Positions 14,674 through 50,409 of a stretch of DNA of 64,000 nucleotides are shown here, piece after piece. Both the position numbers and the translations under genes were made by a program. The notes beneath the pieces are model-generated. The model searched no databases. It was given only the letters and a program-made list of their open reading frames with translations, and had not been told where the DNA came from. The stretch is taken from the NCBI GenBank assembly GCA_015143295.1, contig CM026573.1:4886434-4950433 (forward strand). Direction: 5' to 3'. The first letter of the stretch is position 1, and each line of letters begins with the position of its first letter. This DNA comes from Tetracentron sinense. Lineage: Eukaryota; Streptophyta; Magnoliopsida; Trochodendrales; Trochodendraceae.

Positions 14674-15159
14674 AGGGGTGTCAACGAGCTGAGCTGGGCA
14701 TTGCTCAAGCTTGGCTCGTTGGATTTTTGATGTTGCTCAGGCTCAGTTCGTCCACAAATCATCGAGTTTGAGCCGAGCTCGAGCTTGAGCCGGCTTGTTA
14801 AACTCTACTTTTTAAAAAAAATTGTATAGTGGAGACAATATTTTAATAATTAAGGGATTAAATGGTGGGATACAAAGAAAATGGGAAGATAATGTTTTTA
14901 ATTTAACAAACTTATTTCATTTTCTTATATTTTTAAATGTAAAACTCAATATTAGCAGGAGTGTAACTGTACATGGGTATTCATTGTATTAGTTGAGCCA
15001 AGCTGAGTTGAGCTGAGGTACCTCTTACTCGAGCTCGGCTCGTTATCTCAATGAGCTCACTCATTTGGCTCGGCTCAGCTCAGCTTGATGAGTTTTTTAA
15101 TCTGCTCAAGCTCGGCTTGTTTCAAGCCGAGTCGAGCTAGCTCGGCTCATTGACAGCTT
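14674..15159. mobile_element. hAT-like MITE with GAGCTCGGCTCG-rich termini
   Basis: The left end AGGGGTGTCAACGAGCTGAG and the right end CTCGGCTCATTGACAGCTT are inverted copies. Flanks GATAGCTA (14,666-14,673) and GTTAGCTA (15,160-15,167) agree at 7 of 8 bases. It ends about 70 bp before the TPR start codon, so it lies in that gene's promoter or leader. Relatives: 22.1-22.9 kb and about 41.89 kb. Confidence 0.6.
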
Positions 15160-15228
15160 GTTAGCTACTTACTTAGCTACCTCTCTCCCCACCTCTATCA
15201 ACTGTTCAACAGAAATACGCCGGCGAAC

Positions 15229-18200
15229 ATGGCCGTACTGCTCGGCAACTTAGCACTGTTATTAGACGCGATCTCCCCTCGAACCGGATTACCAGACCGT
15301 AAAACTCGTCCGGTCACCGTCGACGTGCTCTTGAACCTCTCCAAGAGGGACTCTCACCACATCAACAGCGCCAACTTCTATGCTTCTCTTGCCACCAAGG
15401 GCTTCGACTCCGATGGAGAAATTAAGAATCACAGAATCGGCGTTCGAGGAAAAGCTAATTCGAAGATTAATGCCTTCGATTCCAATTCCGATTCCGATTC
15501 CAGCGACGAAGACAATAACGGTAATGGATTTGGGGACGAAGGCGAGGATTTTGAATGGGAGAAAGAAATGCGAAAGAGAGTGAAAGAGATGGAAGAGATG
15601 AAGGAGTTGGAGAGGAAAGCGGAGGAGTTGCAGAATCGAATGGCAGAGGGAAAAGAAGAGACGGAAGAAGAAAAGAGAATGAGAGTGAGAAAAGAGCTTG
15701 AAAAGGTTAGAATTTTTTCTCGATTGATTAGGATGAAATTGATGATTTTGTTAATAATCTTTGTGCCTCATTTTTTCAAATTGATGATTCTGTTAATAAT
15801 CTTTATGCCCCATTTTCAATTCTTTATTTTTCTATTTTACTGAAAGGAATTGACTGAATTACCTGTGAGAAATGGCATAAATTCACTAGCTTGCGCCACT
15901 TTAGCATCTCATCGTTACACATTGAAATTTGGAATCGATTATGGCTGAATTGTGGGCATCACTGTACTTTTTCCAAGACGCAGTTGAGTAGTTTCATGTT
16001 GATTTGCTATTCTGCTTTGCCTATGATTGGTAGTAAAAAGAAGGTTTTGTTGTTTGGGTACAAGAGTAGGTAGCGAAGGAGCAGGCGGAGCAGAGGGCGA
16101 CGGCCAAATTGATGTTTGAGTTGGGGCAGAAGGCTTATGGGAAGGGCATGTATGGACGGGCTATTGAGTTCTTGGAAGGTGCCCTCACAATCATTCCAAG
16201 GCCGACTATGTTCGGTGGCGAGGTCAGTTTGATATGTATAAGATTTCTTTCAGTGAATTCATTATGTTACTGAATAACAATAACCCTTTACTTGTGGTGA
16301 TCAGATACAAATATGGCTTGCTATGGCTTATGAGGCTAAGAACCGTCACGCAGATTGCATTGCTCTTTATCAACAATTGGAGAAGAAGCATCCCAGTGTC
16401 AGTATCCGGCGCCAAGCTGCCGAACTTCGCTACATCTTGCAGGCACCTAAGCTCAAGATTTCTCAGGAGGAAATGGTCACAATTCCGCTGATAGGTTCTA
16501 GTTATGACAGGTAAATTCAGGTTTAATTGTTCCATTAATCATCTAACTTGTATGTTTTGTTTGCTTTAGCTGACCATTACTTGGCTAGGAAATACAAAAA
16601 TGTTGCAACTGTTACATTGCAATCGTATGAAAATATATACCAGTCATCTTTAAACTTTCTTTTCCTTTTATCATTTATGCTTTTCAATCATGGTTGGGAA
16701 TTTTTTGAGCCCTAGAGAGATTTGAGGGGTGATTCATTTTTCTTGTACAAACTGTGAAGTACTTAAGTTTCTTTTCAAAACCTTGCAACTGGTTTCTGAA
16801 AGATAAATCAATGACACTTCATGAAACCTTCCAACTGAATTGGTAAGAAAAACATGGGAGTATGAATAAGGAATTCATAGTTATATCGCAAAAGAAAACG
16901 TTACAGAGAAAGTTACATATGGAAGGAATAATTTTCTAATCCACTGACTTTTCTTTCATGTACACTGGATCCCATCAATATTTTTCTATCTATGTCGTTT
17001 GGATACTTCAGTTGGATGCCCTTGGTATGGGTTTAATACTGCTTTTCACGGACAGACATGCTTGTTTTCTCATGGTCGTGATATGTTTATATTAACAAAT
17101 AACCTTGGCAAGGAAAGCACTCATTAGAATTTTTGTGCTGCATATATATATCCCCTAAATGCAGTCATTTTTATTTGCTACCTTTTCCAATCAAGTGGAT
17201 TCTCACAAGTCAGTTGCAGTGCAATCACATATTACATGTACCATTATGAGGATAACACCTACGTGCACAGACACACATGCTTATTTTCTCGTGGTTGTGT
17301 CATGCGTTTTGATAGTTAATTAGAATTTCTGTTTTTCAAATCTAGTTCACCAACTCGTGGATGCATATTCATATCACCTAAATGCACTCACAAGTCACAT
17401 CCAGTTACTGCCTTTTCAATCAAGCGGATTCTTATGAGTGGTTGCAGTGCTGTATATTTTCTTGAGCTTTAGTCCTTTCAACTTTGGACCTCCCAGGTGA
17501 ACCATTATGGTATGGGAGTTCTCGCGCTTGCTTTCTAATATAATGGCAGAGCTTTTCTTGAGAAATGTGATTGCATTTATGAAATAACATAACAGGCAGC
17601 TAATCATGTCCCTTCTTTGTCTTGTCTTGCCTTAAAGACGTAACCACCCATCTCATCTGAGTAGGAAGTGGCAAATTCGTGTTGATCCCACTCCAATTGT
17701 TCGAAATTCCAGACAATTTGACCATGTACTAACCTTGTATCATATGATAGACTATTGCCTTGACATCTTCTGTCTTATTTTGAACATCTCTGACAAATCA
17801 TTCGTGAACAACAGATGCATACTGTTGCACCAGCTAGGCTAGTCTATCAAAATCAGTGAACTTTCTTGGTCTGTTGTTTCAGGACTTATCAAGTGCATGC
17901 TTCAGATGTCCATCTAAACAATTCTCTCTTATTTTCTTCTTCTGTTTCTCTTTTCTCTAACTTTTTCCTGATACGTATGATTCAGATTTTCCAAACATGT
18001 CTCCCTCTTTAACTCCGTATCTTTTTGTACAATCCAATCATTTCATTTCTCATAGTTGTCACAGCCTCACATGTCATTGTAAAGATATTAAATCAATTTG
18101 CATTGAACTATTAGCCTCTTCATTTTGAATTGAGATATATTACAAAACCATTAATTTATTAGCGAAAACAAAAAGAGAACTAATAATTTCCAAATCTGCG

Positions 18201-41884: not shown

Positions 41885-42864
41885 GTTAGGGGTGTCAACG
41901 AGCCGAGGCTCGTTGGATTTTTGATGTTGTTAAGACTCAGCTCGAGCTTGAAAAGGCCAACTCGGGCTCGAATCGTCCACAAATTATCATGCTCAAGTTG
42001 ATTTTAAACTCTAATTTAAAAAAAAAAATTATATAGTGGGACGATATTTTAACAATTAAGAGATTAAATGGTGATGTACAGAGAGAAGGGAAAGCTAAAA
42101 TAGTATAGTGATTTCACACTTGATTAATATTTCATGTTCTTAATTTTAAGAACTTATTTTATTTTCTTATATTTTTTTTTTAATGAAAAACACAATATTG
42201 ATAAGAGTATAAGTTAAGCAGTAGTACCAACCGTTCAAGTCACCGTCCCGTTGCACATATGTGCATCATCTGTCATGTCCATCAAGGATTGTACAAGTTA
42301 CCGTGGTCCCTTTGGAAGTAGGAACCCGACTTGTACCTTTTACTTTTTGGGCTGTAGACCGACTTCTACGTTTGTTGGCTGTATCTTTTGTCGCTGAATT
42401 CGGTTAGGCCGCAACTCAATCGTTGCTTGGTTCGGCTAAACACGATAGGCATATCAAAGGAATGGACCAACACCCCTCTTGGAGATATAACACTGTCACT
42501 GAACAAACTAGCTAAGTGTTTTTTAGCGATAAAAATAAGAGAAATGCTAACCCGGTCATAATCTTTCAAATTCTCAAAATGGCGGCAACATGTGTCATTG
42601 CTTTTACCCAATTAGTTCACGGATACTCCCAAATTGTGTACTCCCATATATATTCCCAAATCCTAACTGTTGAGTTCAATTATTAAACATTTAGGATGAG
42701 AACTGATGTAATTTTAGAAAAGACAAAATAAACCAACTCAAATCATGACTCTTATTGGTTGGTTGTAAACAGTTACGATTAGGGGGTAAAATTGGAAGTA
42801 CTCATAGAAGTACTCACTTTTACATGTTATCATTAGAATAAGTTGAGGTCATAATTTTTCCTTT
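41885..42864. other. Spacer with a partial GAGCTCGGCTCG-family MITE
   Basis: AGGGGTGTCAACGAGCCGAG at 41,886 is the left end of the hAT-like family seen at 14.7 kb; the right end is missing. The rest has no recognised gene. Confidence 0.5.
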
Positions 42865-44267
42865 GGCTCTGTTTGTTTTCATGGAAAACAAGTTAAGAAA
42901 ATGTTTTCCAAGAGAAAATATTATTTTCTGGTGTTTGGAGTCTTGGAAAATTTAGTTTTTCCCTGGAAAATTTTTCTTCAGGATAATGTTTTCCATAAAT
43001 ATAAAAGGAAAACATTTATCTTAAAATCTGAGAGAAGTTATTTCCATCGTGTGTTCTCGACGACTCTCGGCTCTCGACTCTCAACTGAAACTCTCGACTG
43101 AAACTCTTGTTCTTCATCTCCACTATTCTGAATCCAAAACCATCACACTTAGAACGATTTACAGGTACGAATCTCTAACTTTTCACACTCTTCAATCTCC
43201 CACCACCACAACCTAGATCTGAAATCTAGGGTTTCATCTGTTTTTTTTGAAGAAATTTCAATTGTGAGTTCTGTTCTTGGTGATTTTCAAAAGAATATCA
43301 ATAATATCTACAACTAATCTGAATCTCTATTTTTAGAATCAAAATCTTCTTTCGTTTCAAAGTTTTAGCAAAGATTTTAACAACACTTCGTTGTTAATGG
43401 TGGCTTAATTTGTGTGATTATTGCAATTTTAGCAACTAACCTTCCTTCCCTGTTTACTTTATTTGTCATTGCTGGTTTTAATCATAATTTTTTTATCCAA
43501 GTTCATTGCATGTGATGAACAGACCAAATCGATCACGATTATGTACTTTTTTTTATTGGATCTATTTCTAGTCGCATTATCAGATCTTTGGGTCTAGGTT
43601 TTTTTTGTTTTTTTGGTACTGGGATCTTGGATAATTGAATGATTTTCTCCGGTTATATTTAGGATTTAGCTTGTTGATTTGTTAAAATTCATGTTTGTAT
43701 GGTTGGTTTTGGCTGTTGAGATGTTATGGGATCAGTCGATAGTGGAGTAAATTGTCTGTTTGGGTCAAGTATGTATACGGAGGCTGAGGGATTTGTTGTT
43801 GTGTTTAATTTTCTTCTGATAATCAAGCAAGACATTTGAGATTTTTTTTTGAAATTTGCTCAAATTCTATAAATTATTTTTGATGTTGTTATGAATGAAA
43901 ACAACATGGTATTTTCCTTTTCTTTTTCGTTGTACTGCATCATTTGTTAGATGTTAATCTTGCATTGCTGAATTATTTGAGAATTCTCATTGTGTATAGA
44001 TGAATAGGTTTCGATACCTGGATGCTTATACAATACTGGTATTGAAAACACTCGAATGCTTGCATAATATTTATTAAGTGTTTCATACTATAATCATCAT
44101 TGATGCTTAGTGATCACATGACCCCAATTTGTCTGCCTAATAATTAATAGAAGTACCATTATCTAAGGTTAATATTTAGTATTGTTAATCAAATAATTAA
44201 ATTTTCCATTTAATTATGTACGTATAATAAGTGTCAAAGTTTAACATACTTATTCTATGTTTTAGAT

Positions 44268-45565
44268 ATGGGGATTCATCGCATCATTGACAAGCGTAAG
44301 GTCAAAGTTGGCATTTTAGCTTCTACTGCAGCAGGCTTTGCCTGTCTCCTTACTGCGTACTATACAAAATGCCTTAAAAGAACGCCTTCCATCAATAGGG
44401 ATGAAGAAAGAAAAATATTTGTGAATCGAATATTTAACGGGAGAAATAGAGATTGTTTAAATCAAGTGAGAATGAGTAAGGAGTGTTTTTACAGGCTGTG
44501 TACTATCTTAAGAGAAACTTCACGAGTAAGTGATTCTCTTAACGTTAGTGTGGAGGAACAAGTGGTTATGTTTCTGCACACGCTAGGCCATAATGTCAGA
44601 AATCGAGTGATTTCTTTTCGGTTCAGTCGTTCAGGAGAAACAGTTAGTCGGTACTTCAACAACGTATTACAAGCAGTAATTAGCTTGTACAAGGATTTAG
44701 TTAGACAACCAGCTGGGATTGAAACACCGCCAGAAATAATGAACGATCGTAGATTTTGGCCATACTTTAAGGTATACATGTAACTATTTCCTTATATATA
44801 GAAATGAGTATATTTGTTTTATATTGGTCTTACAATCTATTTAATTATTCAATAGGATTGTGTGGGAGTGATTGACGGGACACATATTAAATGTTCAGTG
44901 CCCATTGAAGATCAGGCTAGGTTTCGTGGTCGAAAGTTATATACCACACAAAATGTAATGGCAGCATGTTCATTTGACCTAAAGTTCACCTATGTATTAG
45001 CTGGTTGGGAAGGATCTGCTGCGGATCCAGTTGTCTTGGCCGATGCATTAAAGAAAAAAAATAAATTAGTGGTCCCCGAAGGTATTGCCAATTATAAAAT
45101 AGTAAATAGGTATTAATTTTAATAACAACAAAATAATGACATTTGAAAACTTTTTGTGTAGGTAGATAATGACTTTTACTTTTTTGTGTAGGTAAATATT
45201 ATCTTGTTGACGCGGGATATGGGAATCAACCTGGTTTTCTTGCCCCATATCGTGGTACACGCTATCACTTGAATGAATATAGTGGAAGGATTCCTGAAAG
45301 CCAAGATGAATTGTTCAATCATCGTCATTCATCACTACGGAATTGTATTGAACGAGCATTTGGAGTGTTGAAAAAACGCTTTCCAATATTAGATTCAACA
45401 CCTTATTTTTCATTTGCCAACCAAGTTAAAGTAGTGATAGCTTGTTGTGTTATCCACAACCACATTATGGGTGTAGAACCGAATGATCAGTTTATGCAAG
45501 AAACGGATCAAGAGTTACAAAGACAACAACTAGGATCACGTATGACACAGAGAACAAAGAGATGA
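44268..45565 (+). CDS. PIF/Harbinger DDE transposase, C-terminus shortened by a frameshift
   Basis: Exons 44268-44771, 44856-45081 and 45192-45565 (GT-AG introns) give 367 residues. The protein cuts and rejoins transposon ends. Residues 20-35 are hydrophobic. Residues 60-150 are the helix-rich DNA-binding part (MSKECFYRLCTILRE; VVMFLHTLGHNVRNR). The DDE core has VIDGTHIK (Asp175), GSAADPVVL (Asp225) and RNCIERAFGVLKKRF (Glu297), all three catalytic acids present. VDAGYGNQPGFLAPYRG is the expected linker. The stop after RMTQRTKR comes from an apparent 1-base loss near 45,561. In the next frame the reading continues DEHSRWASTRDEMAATMYAD and on to a TGA at about 45,644, a tail typical of the family. 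The core is intact, so activity may survive. The start is the first ATG after a probable leader-intron acceptor. Confidence 0.88.
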
Positions 45566-46052
45566 GCATAGTAGGTGGGCGAGTACAAGAGACGAAATGG
45601 CTGCAACCATGTATGCAGATTTTAGACGTGGTCGAATAAATTGAGTTAACTTGTGATGTCATATTATTGAGTTAACTTGTAAAACGTTTTTGAACATGTT
45701 ATGTAGTTGAATAATTTGTTACCTTATTTTGTTATATTTGTGAAAATGAAGCTTGTTAGGTTATATAGTTGAGTAAATTATATATTATCGTTGTGTTTAA
45801 TCTCTTAATGTTTATTATTATTCGTTTTACTTTCTTGACATGAATTGTTAGTTTGTGAGCTGAAACATGCCTTGTGGGGATTTAGGTCACCGTGGATACA
45901 ATCTTTTGAGGTTTGATTAGAGATTTTTTGAGTTTTCTTCAATCACATTAAGTAACTTGTCGGGTTATGTAATTTATTAAACTTGTTCATTATACTTTCT
46001 TTCTACCTTGTTTATAATACCTATTCGTACTCCTTGACTTTTATGTGAAGAG

Positions 46053-47053
46053 ATGAAGAGTTCAGAATCAAAAGAAGAAAGTAGTAACAAGAAGAAACAT
46101 GAGAAAAAGGGAAATCAATTAAGGTGGACAAATATAATGGATCGTTGTCTGATAGAGGGTCTTGTAGAACAAGCAGCTCTTGGTAACAAAATTGACAAGA
46201 CATTCAAGACAAAAGCATTTACAACTGTATGCAATGATCTAAGTTCAAGATTCAAAAAGGACATAAGACACGACCATATAAAGAATCGGATGAAGACTAT
46301 CAAAAAGCAATATTTGGCTATGAAGAAGCTTTTGACCGTAAGTGGCTTCGGTTTTGATGCAACAACTAAGACAATCATCGCAGATGATAATGTTTGGAAT
46401 GACTACATTAAGGTGTAATATATATGAGTATGTAATAAGTTTTTTAAAGCTCATATTTGATTTATGTTTCTATCGGAATTAACTTTTATTATCTACAGGT
46501 ACGCCCTGATGCTGCTGATTTTCAATATAAGACTATTGAAAATTGGGTAGAGATGGGAATAGTTGTTGGCGACGATCAAGCGACTGGAAGCATGGCTAAA
46601 GCGGGCCTTGATTTTGGTGATGAGTTTGACTGTGCAAATGTTGAACAATTCCCAAGAATGAACGAAGAGTTTGGAATTGACGATATTGCTGAGGGCACAG
46701 AAGCATCGACCGAACAAAGCAAAGGTCCTCAAGCTACATCATCTACGTCCAGACGTCATGGAAAGAAGCCTCGTGTGTGTGATGAATTAGTCCAAATTAT
46801 TGATCGTGTAGCAACGAGTATGGATAAGATAGCCGAAGCAATGCATACAGACATTGAGGCTGCGTATGCATCAGACTTGTATGCAAAAGTGATGAAGATC
46901 GAAGGTTTTGAGTTTGATTTCCTCGATGATGCATTCGAAATCTTAAATGGTGATGACAAACTTTCCAGGGCATTTCTCGCTAGAAATGAAAGAGGAAGGA
47001 GGAAGATGTTAGAAAAGATGGTTAATAAGGATGGTGCTAGCAAAAGTAGTTAG
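46053..47053 (+). CDS. Myb/SANT-like DNA-binding partner protein of Harbinger
   Basis: Exons 46053-46412 and 46499-47053 (GT-AG) join to 304 residues with no internal stop. Residues 25-120 form the Myb/SANT-like (trihelix-related) domain seen in PIF/Harbinger second ORFs and in plant L10-interacting-type proteins: LRWTNIMDRCLIEGLVEQA, then FKKDIRHDHIKNRMKTIKKQ and VWNDYIK. The middle is acidic and Ser/Thr-rich with a basic patch (SRRHGKKPR). The C-terminal 100 residues are a predicted helical region (RVATSMDKIAEAMHTDIEAA). In this superfamily the protein brings the transposase to the transposon ends and into the nucleus. It lies 0.5 kb downstream of the transposase in the same orientation. 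Nothing broken is seen. Confidence 0.88.
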
Positions 47054-47576
47054 CTAGTTATTTTAGTTTTTAGTACATATGTTCTGTTTTTGTTGGTATC
47101 GACTTGCATCCGGTTATTTTACTATTTTGGCTTGCTTCTTGATTGACATGGATTAGGTTATATTTTGAAACTATGGATTGACACATTAGGTTATTATTAT
47201 GTCAATGGATTGGTACATTTGATATCGTTATGTTAATATATTATGATAGATTAGGTTATATTTTGATCTTGTATCCAATGAGAAACAATGAGGTCACAAT
47301 TGGTGGCCCCATATTGAGCCAGTATTGTGGGAGGATTCTTTCTCTCCCTTGACAGAAGGGAGGATTCTTTCCAATTAATTTGTAACCCAAATTCTCGCGA
47401 ACTTCACTTCAGTAGCCAAACTAGTTACTGTCATGCCTATGGCATTTGTTCAGGTATTTATAAAACCCATGGTCTAATTTTATTTGGCATTATGAACCAG
47501 TTGTATGCTCTCTATCTCTTACAAGATCATTGAGTTTATTTTCTCAAGACAGTGTTAGGCATCCCTTTTATGTATG

Positions 47577-47607
47577 AACAAACTAGACTGACATGGGGGC
47601 TATCTTT
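47577..47607 (+). repeat. Direct repeat, left copy
   Basis: AACAAACTAGACTGACATG, then GGGGCTATCTTT. The same 31 bases with one substitution occur at 50,377-50,407, exactly at the right end of the Harbinger element. The two copies bracket the captured gene fragments. Confidence 0.85.
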
Positions 47608-47770
47608 TGGGTGTATGGGTTATGAAACTTTAGAGTAGTTTGCTGCTTGGAGCTGCAAAGAGTATATTGGTTTTGGAGGAACATTTGTTCATTTAGATTA
47701 TTTGGCTACTGACACTTGCTGATTTGATACAGTACAAGCAACCTTGAAGATACACTTGCTGATTTATTTA

Positions 47771-47981
47771 GCGGTTTTGGAAGTTGGGGCAGTTGTGGCT
47801 GTGAAGAGGCTCAAGGATGTGACAATTCCTGAGAAGGAATTCAAAGATAAGATCGAAGCCATTGGAGCCATGGATCACGAAAATCTGGTTCCTCTCAGAG
47901 CTTACTATTTCAGCAATGAGGAGAAGCTTCTTGTCTATGATTAAATGACCATGGGAAGCTTATCTGCACTTTTGCATGGTG
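47771..47981 (+). pseudogene. Captured LRR receptor-like kinase fragment
   Basis: It reads AVLEVGAVVAVKRLKDVTIP, then KIEAIGAMDHENLVPLRAYY and EEKLLVYD, followed by a TAA where the family has Tyr, then MTMGSLSALLHG. This is the N-lobe of a plant LRR receptor-like kinase (the RKL1/RLK902 type), including the ATP-anchoring Lys in VAVKRL. The glycine-rich loop, the LRRs and the C-lobe are absent. The in-frame stop and truncation make it a pseudogene fragment. It lies on the same strand as the transposase. Confidence 0.85.
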
Positions 47982-48883
47982 AGCTTTTCTTCTGTTTTTT
48001 TTAATTCAGTCAAGTAACTCAACCGAGTTTCAAGTCGACTCACCAAGTTTTCGAACTATGGTCTTAACATGTCTTAACATAAAGAAACTAAAATACTGAA
48101 ATAAATAAACTAAAACAAAGTTTATCCCTTTAATAGGGATTTATGTAAATATTAGAGACTGAATTAAGTGGAATGGGGGCAAGAGAGCTCCTGGCTGCCA
48201 ACCCATACTTGTCGAGCATGCTCTTCCTTGAACATGACGATGCCCCTGCATCAATGTATAAACTTTTGTTTATTGGTAAAGGTGCCTGTTTGTTGTTTGC
48301 TACATGCAGTGGATGCTTCCGCCAAACATTTTGTCTGTTTCAGTCAGATGGCCAATTTTTCATCTATTCATTCTGGATGAAAGTGGAAGAATCAAGATCT
48401 TTTTGCAATAAGCAATGGCTTGATTAAAACAGTCTCCAGAGTTTGCTAGAAGCTGAAAGGACTGTTATTCGTCAAGTTTAATATGAGTTATTGGGTTGAA
48501 TAAAACGATGATCCAAGTTCGGTAGAAAAGTAACGACACTTGCTGATGAAATCTTGATTAGATTGAGTCTCTTGAACTTGGCAAAAATAGGGAGTTACCT
48601 TTCACTTGAAGTCGTAAATGGGTGTTCTGCAGCATACTGGACATTTATAATAGAGATTATTATTAGTGATAGGAATTGTTCTATTTTATTTTATTTTTGG
48701 AGTCCCTTTGGTTGGTGTCGAATACTTTTGTATTTACACTACCCTATGATGAAATGCAATTTTATAAATGTATTTAACTATAAAATGCTTTTGTCCCGTA
48801 ACAAATACTTGGTGTAAAAAATATGCTCTTATTCTCCCGTGCTTCTATTTTTTATGCTCTCCTTTTTTATTTTTTATTTTCAG

Positions 48884-50061
48884 TGAGGAAGAAGCGAAGA
48901 AGAACATTTACTCGGTGTCAACTAAGCACTATTTTGCTTTTGGATGCATTGTGTCTGAGGAAATTTCGTACAAGATCAAAGGTGGTACAGCAACTCATTA
49001 TCAGCATATGCTTTCTATTATTTCTGTTCAAATGTGAGTCATAATTGGTAATTGGTATCGTCATTGAAAAAATGTACAGAATTGCCTAAAGTCCGGTGGG
49101 TTCTTCCCAATTCTTACTTGGATATAAAGAATAAAGATTACGGAGGTATGCAACTGGTTGATATTAATATTATGCCTTCTCTTATATCTTTTGTTGATTT
49201 CCTGAAGCATTGCAGTCAGTCAGCAGACTTATTCATAAGATGTGTAAACAGTGATGTGTACATGATGCCTTTGTTCCACTGCTAATATTTTCATTTAGAC
49301 ATTATTTTGTATTGGACCGTTGTGCTGTATGTGTTTTGGATTACTGGACGTCTCACACTCACATGCACACACACACACAATCACACACACACACACACAC
49401 ACTGGCATATTATTTATACATAATGATTGGCGCTTATATAGTTCAGTATATCTAAGGTATTAGAGAATAGAAAAGGGAACTCTTGTCCTTGTACATTCTC
49501 CAGTAAAGGTTGTGGATCTGCTTGTCTTGTGGATTTAAGTTGCCGTCTGTTTGGCCATCCTGCTATTGGGTTGTTATATCCATTAAAAGTTGGTGATGAA
49601 ACGGACAGCATCCTAGCTTATGAATATAAAGTGGAGTCCCCAGACCTTGGCATGTGTTGAAAGAATCTGATCATTCTTGCACCATGTAGACTTGGTGGTT
49701 TGCAATTTGGCTTTTGCAATTAGCCATTTAGGGTTAAGATTTGATGATTACTCTTTATCTTGTATTCTGGCGTTTATTTCATTTGGCAGGGGAACCTTTT
49801 ATTGATGGAAGAGCCGTTCCATATGATCCCAAGTACCACGAGGAATGGGTAAGGAACAATGCACGGGCAAATGAGAGGTCCAGGCGCAATGACAGACCTC
49901 GTAACTCTGATAGGTCGAGGAACTTTGAAAGAAGAAGAGAAAATATGCAGAACCAAGATTTCCAGAACAAGGAGATGCCTCCAATGCCTAATCGGGATAT
50001 GCAGAACCCTGTGCCTAACACGGGAGGTGGACTAAATGTATCTTATGTCCCGCATATTTAG
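48884..50061 (+). pseudogene. Captured MORF (multiple organellar RNA editing factor) fragment
   Basis: Three exons with intact splice signals: 48884-48981 (SEEEAKKNIYSVSTKHYFAF, then VSEEISYKIK), 49080-49145 (ELPKVRWVLPNSYLDIKNKD) and 49790-50061 (GEPFIDGRAVPYDPKYHEEW, then an Arg/Asn-rich tail). MORF/RIP proteins act in plastid and mitochondrial C-to-U RNA editing. The N-terminal targeting sequence and first half of the MORF box (the EHWLVVME region) are absent, so no functional protein is expected. Introns are kept, so the copy came from DNA, not RNA. The reading frame after about 50,025 enters a local repeat, which probably marks the breakpoint. Confidence 0.85.
49354..49402. repeat. CA dinucleotide microsatellite
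   Basis: Interrupted (CA)n in the MORF intron. Confidence 0.9.
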
Positions 50062-50409
50062 TGGAATTATTTGATACAAGTGGACTAAATGTATCTTATT
50101 TTCTTGTAATTATAGTATACCATCATTTTCTTGTAATTACAGGTGGGCTAAACGATTAATGGAATTATAGTATTAACAGGCATGTGATTTAGTGGAATTA
50201 TAGTATTAACTCTTGTGAGTTTGTGATAATTTTTTTCCTTCTAGTCAAACAGTAGAAAATATTTCCAGAGATTGTTTTTCCTTCTAGCCAAACAATAGAA
50301 ATTAGAATGGCATGGAAACTTTTTCAGAAAATAATTCTCTCGGAAAAATTTTCTTTTCCATCCCATTTTCCGTGCAAACAAACTAGACTGACATGAGGGC
50401 TATCTTTAA

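Follow-up and report, generated by a model that had tools for sequence, protein, structure and literature searches.

In a window of 64,000 nucleotides from Tetracentron sinense (GenBank assembly GCA_015143295.1, contig CM026573.1, positions 4,886,434 to 4,950,433 of the forward strand; C23 in the contig numbering used below), positions 42865-50383 form a single PIF/Harbinger element, roughly 7.5 kb long. Very probably, this cut-and-paste transposon took up pieces of host genes downstream of its Myb/SANT-like gene, ahead of its 3′ end, and spread afterwards together with them. Three lines of evidence bear on this: two sister copies elsewhere in the genome that carry the same cargo, a site corresponding to one of these copies from which the entire unit is absent, and cargo pieces that match unlinked host loci. 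The genome searched amounted to 1.16 Gb, and plant-type genes (leucine-rich repeat [LRR] kinase, MORF, WRKY) were recognised by Pfam in the genome stretches examined. All window features given below lie on the plus strand.

The 5′ terminal inverted repeat (42865-42889), which starts at 42865 with the sequence GGCTCTGTTTGTTTTCATGGAAAAC, is preceded by TTT, and similar sequence stands at the 5′ end of 10 related loci besides that of the window. Matches to the first 186 bp of the element (42865-43050; 40 scored, the window's own counted in) were closest on C14 and C470, at 97%–98% identity. Both of these copies (L021 on C14 and L022 on C470) align in one piece with window positions 42861-50383, at 98.2% and 98.6% respectively, and hold the same pieces of an LRR receptor-like kinase (RLK) gene and a MORF gene, whereas the flanks of the three copies show no alignment to one another's surroundings. 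Therefore, the outer ends pair, and the RLK and MORF pieces lie inside the element, as a sequence-only reading of this DNA had proposed from inverted ends at 42.87 and 50.38 kb. Divergence among the three sisters over the whole element was 1.0%–1.2%. Near window position 47712, L021 and L022 each contain an additional tandem 13-bp CACTTGCTGATTT, missing from the window.

Unoccupied sites were sought with queries made of joined left and right flanks, and counterparts were found for both sister copies. The C470 counterpart, on C14 (99% over 500 bp; 559130-559330 fetched), reads GTTATGCTATGGGTC, and the filled C470 site reads GCTAT-element-TATGGGTC; the 7,546-bp C470 unit was inserted whole, with a TAT duplication. 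Two further counterparts of the C470 flank lie on C16 (97%, one base different at the site) and C3 (95%). The C14 copy sits in a high-copy repeat, and its unoccupied counterpart on C5 reads CCTTAGGG. The left junction of this copy (C14:12011979) reads TAT, in contrast to the TTA found on its right and at the unoccupied C5 site; to judge by these bases, the left junction looks as if it had been converted by another copy. PIF/Harbinger elements are characterised by a 3-bp target duplication, mostly TAA or TTA, and by an inverted repeat beginning GG(G/C)CC, according to the passages on these traits in PMC4423477. Identical 3-bp duplications were present at six of the eight related loci for which the 5′ and 3′ ends were both read (L022, L024, L025, L026, L027, and L033; TTA and TAT twice each, TAA and AAA once each) and were not identical at the other two (L021 and L034). 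The duplication can thus be read over the related loci and is unreadable at the overwritten 3′ end of the window copy. Family ends mostly start with GGC or GGS as expected, with T rather than C as the usual fourth base.

Of the inverted ends in the earlier reading, the 3′ one stands in the window only in part. The 3′ subterminal module and the 3′ inverted repeat extend from 50042 to 50383, up to AACAAAC (blastn and sister comparison), and in L021 and L022 the end reads ...AACAAACGCAGCC. In the window, the terminal GCAGCC has been swapped for TAGACTGACATGAGGGCTATC(TTT), a template-switch scar (50384-50407) that copies internal positions 47584-47607 with one difference; the final TTT may be a retained target duplication. 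With the last 6 bp of its 3′ inverted repeat overwritten, the window copy is probably immobile, so that the description of the element as potentially mobile fits the ends of its sisters better. The scar is present in the window and at a locus on C282, which matches through the stretch, and is not found in the C14 and C470 copies. The C282 locus was rejected as an independent fourth copy: its right flank is 98% identical to that of the window locus, its 3′ end carries the window's scar, and by its sequence it is the same insertion as the window locus, either an allele or a duplicated segment. Its left flank was looked for and not found. The C282 version (L023, L052) is broken at window positions 44932 and 49782-49800, with the same repeat end at both. 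The left flank of the window copy includes some 200 bp of dispersed repeat (42610-42808), found in dozens of places at 80%–86% among the matches listed.

Both genes expected of a PIF/Harbinger element are present. The transposase gene (44268-45565; exons 44268-44771, 44856-45081, and 45192-45565, with GT/AG splice sites) yields a spliced translation of 367 amino acids with no stop, in which PF13359 (DDE_Tnp_4) was matched above its curated cut-off in exon 2 (E = 1.3e-7) and exon 3 (E = 3.4e-12), and PF13613 was matched under its cut-off in exon 1. The proposed Harbinger-type DDE transposase is thereby confirmed. Judging by Harbinger motifs, we take the catalytic D, D, and E to lie in IDGTH, VDAGY, and CIERAFG; 46 residues separate the second D from the E by a hand count on the spliced translation. 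The partner gene (ORF1, 46053-47053; exons 46053-46412 and 46499-47053) encodes a Myb/SANT domain (PF12776, Myb_DNA-bind_3, E = 2.3e-25) in a spliced product of 304 amino acids with no stop. It had been described as uninterrupted, which is incorrect, as its one intron (46413-46498) contains an in-frame stop.

Downstream of the Myb gene, similarity to four related loci (L024, L025, L026, and L027), which are 94%–97% like the window over the preceding stretch, stops at 47315, after which they differ; from 47414 onwards, the window resembles the 3′ modules of L031 (C9) and L026 (C4) (blastn; break at 47315-47414). An older cargo piece (47479-47752) is 96% identical to C24:31844660-31844933 and is followed by a 14-bp templated filler (47752-47765), an exact copy of 47712-47725. 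Beside this filler lies the RLK piece (47771-48001), an exon end and intron start that is 95.7% identical to C4:37404045-37404275. The kinase N-lobe recognised in the sequence-only reading was recovered in it (PK_Tyr_Ser-Thr, E = 4.2e-6, with a peptide query carrying X at the stop codon), and an in-frame stop is common to all three sisters. The matched C4 stretch lies in a frame of 466 amino acids with LRR and kinase domains, and a second kinase frame is found downstream. The MORF piece (48003-50028) is 94.7% identical to C3:44082025-44084052 over its whole length. Since introns are included in this match, it was copied as DNA. Its three exons, likewise foreseen with their introns, were placed by eye at 48884-48981, 49080-49145, and 49790-50028; the first gave a MORF_dom match (E = 4.6e-11, profile positions 35-68 of 93), and the second and third align to the C3 source gene with no stop. 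The C4 and C3 loci are the best matches outside element copies. A 20-bp templated filler (50027-50046), an exact copy of 50080-50099, separates the MORF piece from the 3′ module, whose first 54 bp (from 50042) match C6:44469173-44469226 at 93%. Substitutions separate the MORF piece from its C3 locus at 70 of 2,007 aligned bases, a divergence above that among the sisters, and capture therefore probably preceded the spread of the sister copies.

In other members of the family, the interval from the Myb gene to the 3′ end likewise holds host sequence, though of different origin. We fetched 14 stretches: the C24 locus and twelve elements or element parts, one of which took up two stretches. The far 5′ ends of L025, L026, and L027 are only 76%–77% like the window. 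The cargo of L026 matches about nine unlinked places, including C21:19015811, the piece from which gives a P450 match (E = 4.6e-13); an ascription of this P450 piece to C13 was rejected, as the rechecked position falls in the C21 piece. L025 cargo matches C13, C15, and C2, with a GAT match in the C15 piece that is under its cut-off. L024 cargo matches C12:37536556-37537968, a source gene to which Pfam gave no name and which, read by eye, appears IWS1-like. Two stretches of this source, of about 200 and 460 bp, were skipped at 5-bp matches. Because parts of the source are skipped, capture from spliced complementary DNA was considered for L024; it was rejected, as intron sequence is present and both skips fall at 5-bp matches. 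L027 has most of its content in common with L024 and is internally deleted. L030 contains copies, at 93%–94%, of C23:3155398-3157804, where two short-chain reductase matches are both under their cut-off, together with a WRKY piece (E = 2.3e-14) that has no source among the matches listed. About 500 bp of the C23 locus (3155848-3156349) are absent from the captured copy in L030, with a sharp break at that point; this could reflect intron loss, a later insertion in the source, or a template skip. The final 1.5 kb fetched for L030 were not counted as cargo, being high-copy repeat, and the element at C22:10454468-10473527 was dropped as evidence of capture, as high-copy repeat follows its Myb end. 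Besides the RLK, MORF, and C12 loci, some places that match cargo may be element copies and not sources; this is probably so for C7:4119763 and C988. A near-empty relative is provided by a C16 member (L063): over the region compared, from the Myb coding end (72%–85% alike) to the 3′ module, only 201 bp lie between the two matched stretches. L063 was used in place of L033 (4,311 bp), in which the Myb-end stretch and 3′ module are 141 bp apart; its standing as an uncharged member was weakened when tblastn found neither a transposase nor a Myb frame in it.

The boundaries of the cargo bear on how it was acquired. Templated fillers of 14, 20, and 24 bp stand at the C24/RLK boundary, the MORF/3′ boundary, and the 3′ terminus, and an ancestral single copy of each filler source was found in L031 and additionally in L026 or the C24 locus (the 47712-47725 sequence in L031 and the C24 locus; the 50080-50099 sequence in L026 and L031). 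The filler junctions around the RLK and MORF pieces are identical in the window, C14, C470, and C282. Among 11 hand-picked abutting cargo boundaries, seven have an overlap of 3-5 bp (chance expectation, 6%). In query coordinates, these boundaries were 619/625 (a gap), 984/981, 2324/2322, 2833/2830, 3633/3630, and 3949/3947 in L026; 429/431 (a gap) in L025; 653/654 (no overlap) in L030; 48001/48003 (a gap) in the window; and, within the C12 source of L024, 431/419 (5 bp exact) and 680/676. The count is suggestive only. At some of the 11 boundaries, one side is a family block and not a source locus, and the two window boundaries with templated filler, as well as edges that merely separate two element copies, were omitted.

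Taken as sequence patterns, the fillers and the junction microhomology suggest capture by template-switching break repair; internal deletion after capture would leave some of the same marks. Under the proposed mechanism, a break or excision gap would have opened near the 3′ end of the element, and repair synthesis would have jumped to unrelated templates where a few bases matched, so that cargo was gained stepwise. The enlarged unit could then have been moved by a transposase, its own or that of a relative, because its ends were intact. Later, a similar repair would have overwritten the last 6 bp of the 3′ inverted repeat in the window, probably immobilising that copy. More tentatively, and with the odds somewhat against so broad a statement, this Harbinger line may be an assembler of gene fragments: otherwise autonomous, still moving, and using template-switching repair to add or replace pieces of unlinked host genes at a single favoured loading site that follows the Myb gene and precedes the 3′ end.

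An alternative route to the same structure is the fusion of neighbouring insertions, in which aberrant excision removes the inner ends of two close Harbinger copies and turns the chromosomal DNA between them into cargo. This model has been published for Pack-TYPE elements, with maize Pack-PIF cluster 18 as an example in the portions of that paper that treat it (Gisby and Catoni 2022, PMC8903248), and one feature of the family speaks for it: L026 and L031 both contain an internal GGCTCTGTTTG directly after TAA, at the edge of a piece derived from C16/C2. The motif equals the opening 11 bases of the 5′ inverted repeat (L026:1389, minus strand, on C4 near 11388388; also in L031) and is possibly the remnant of a second element end. 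It falls, however, outside the part that these loci have in common with the window, whose own cargo combines pieces with matches at four unlinked places (C24, C4, C3, and C6) and holds a single 3-mismatch match to the inverted repeat, which is chance level. Nor would simple fusion predict templated fillers or skips inside the one C12 source gene, and we consider it an unlikely origin for the cargo.

Two further explanations concern the RLK and MORF pieces themselves. If these were an independent insertion or chance neighbour of a shorter Harbinger element ending near 47.58 kb, the resemblance of 47578-47607 to 50378-50407 would be the trace of that end. The two places look alike, however, because the 3′ scar copies the internal stretch 47584-47607. 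An end at 47.58 kb was rejected on this ground and because both full-length sisters continue through the RLK and MORF pieces to 50383; the unoccupied C470 site, moreover, lacks the entire unit. A shorter element is thus scarcely credible. Little more can be said for the idea that a new chimeric gene has taken up the three MORF exons as functional exons, which we regard as very improbable. The AG/GT splice sites are kept in the window, C14, and C470, and the joined exon frame is open in the window and C14, but in C470 it is stopped at the end of the first exon, the domain match begins only at profile position 35 of 93, and the RLK piece carries a stop. Divergence from the source is also similar in exons and introns (11 of 411 and 59 of 1,596 bases, with constraint on the source included).

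Several observations weigh against the account of capture followed by spread. The C470 flank has at least three genomic counterparts and is therefore repeated, so that its unoccupied site may be paralogous rather than allelic. The target duplication of the C14 copy is changed on the left, with TTA kept on the right, and an unoccupied site for the window copy was not found among 40 scored candidates, its left flank being partly dispersed repeat, so that such a site may be hidden. The internal 11-bp motif of L026 and L031 counts here as well. The set of boundaries was chosen after the fact and leaves out at least five with gaps of 15-65 bases (161/177, 1690/1756, and 3057/3078 in L026; 1522/1551 in L025; 1043/1061 in L024). 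Three frameshifting indels lie in the transposase gene of C470; in C14, a stop falls close to the end of the Myb gene, and the transposase is frameshifted in its last codons. Of the three sisters, only the window copy has both genes intact, and it is the end-damaged one, so that no sister combines both intact genes with both intact ends. The ratio of nonsynonymous to synonymous divergence (dN/dS) between the window and its relatives is low for the transposase against L026 (0.19), L025 (0.28), and L028 (0.33) and for the Myb gene against L026 (0.20), but reaches 0.65 (L024) and 0.71 (L030) for the transposase and 0.54 (L030), 0.59 (L024), 0.62 (L028), 0.89 (L027), and 0.93 (L025) for the Myb gene. 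Between sisters, the transposase differs by 1 synonymous and 10-13 nonsynonymous changes. By these ratios, constraint is shown in only part of the element line, and the present copies look like decaying ones.

Elsewhere in the window, positions 15154-15843 hold its longest stop-free frame, encoding 229 amino acids that are acidic and rich in E and K; by its composition, it is perhaps a host exon.

Gene-keeping PIF elements with captured exons and introns are already known and have seldom been described in such detail. The sequence-only reading considered capture rare in a Harbinger element that keeps its own genes, a view tempered by a grapevine precedent from 2008. According to the passages on Pifvine-3 (Benjak 2008, PMC2528002), the long 5′ regions of this family are mostly highly identical to grapevine genome sequence, exons and introns included, and its members often carry up to 3.5 kb of host sequence, sometimes common to several copies. 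The Tetracentron element likewise retains its transposase and ORF1, holds host exons and introns, and occurs in several copies; unlike the cargo in the long 5′ region of Pifvine-3, its cargo lies 3′ of the Myb gene. Templated fillers and unoccupied sites are not mentioned in those passages. The captured gene fragments between Harbinger ends, with target duplications around them, resemble Pack-PIF and other Pack-TYPE elements as these are treated in the relevant sections of PMC8903248, where they are described as non-autonomous; the window element differs in its open transposase frame of 367 amino acids. The pipeline set out there first classes as autonomous every element that has a transposase match and scores captured genes only afterwards, and an element like that of the window would therefore not be counted as a Pack element. 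Gap filling and FoSTeST in animal Pack-TIR elements, as presented in the main text of PMC8277862, share breakpoint microhomology and template switching as the proposed capture route, but concern animals, and the word Harbinger is absent from that text. Turmoil-1 of Caenorhabditis elegans is, in the passages devoted to it in PMC2572040, a Harbinger element with a transposase and captured coding sequence, with the difference that the captured stretch is found within its 760-bp inverted repeats. The main text of a Medicago PIF/Harbinger survey contains none of six capture-related terms, and a PIF family with templated fillers at cargo junctions was not found in those parts of the open-access literature that were searched, though one may be in print elsewhere.

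How transposons acquire genes is still disputed. The present family offers captures with identifiable matching loci, a near-empty relative, unoccupied sites, and readable junction scars, and template switching and fusion can therefore be distinguished in it junction by junction. It also represents a class of elements that at least one Pack-element pipeline, in the sections describing it, sets aside because the transposase is kept.

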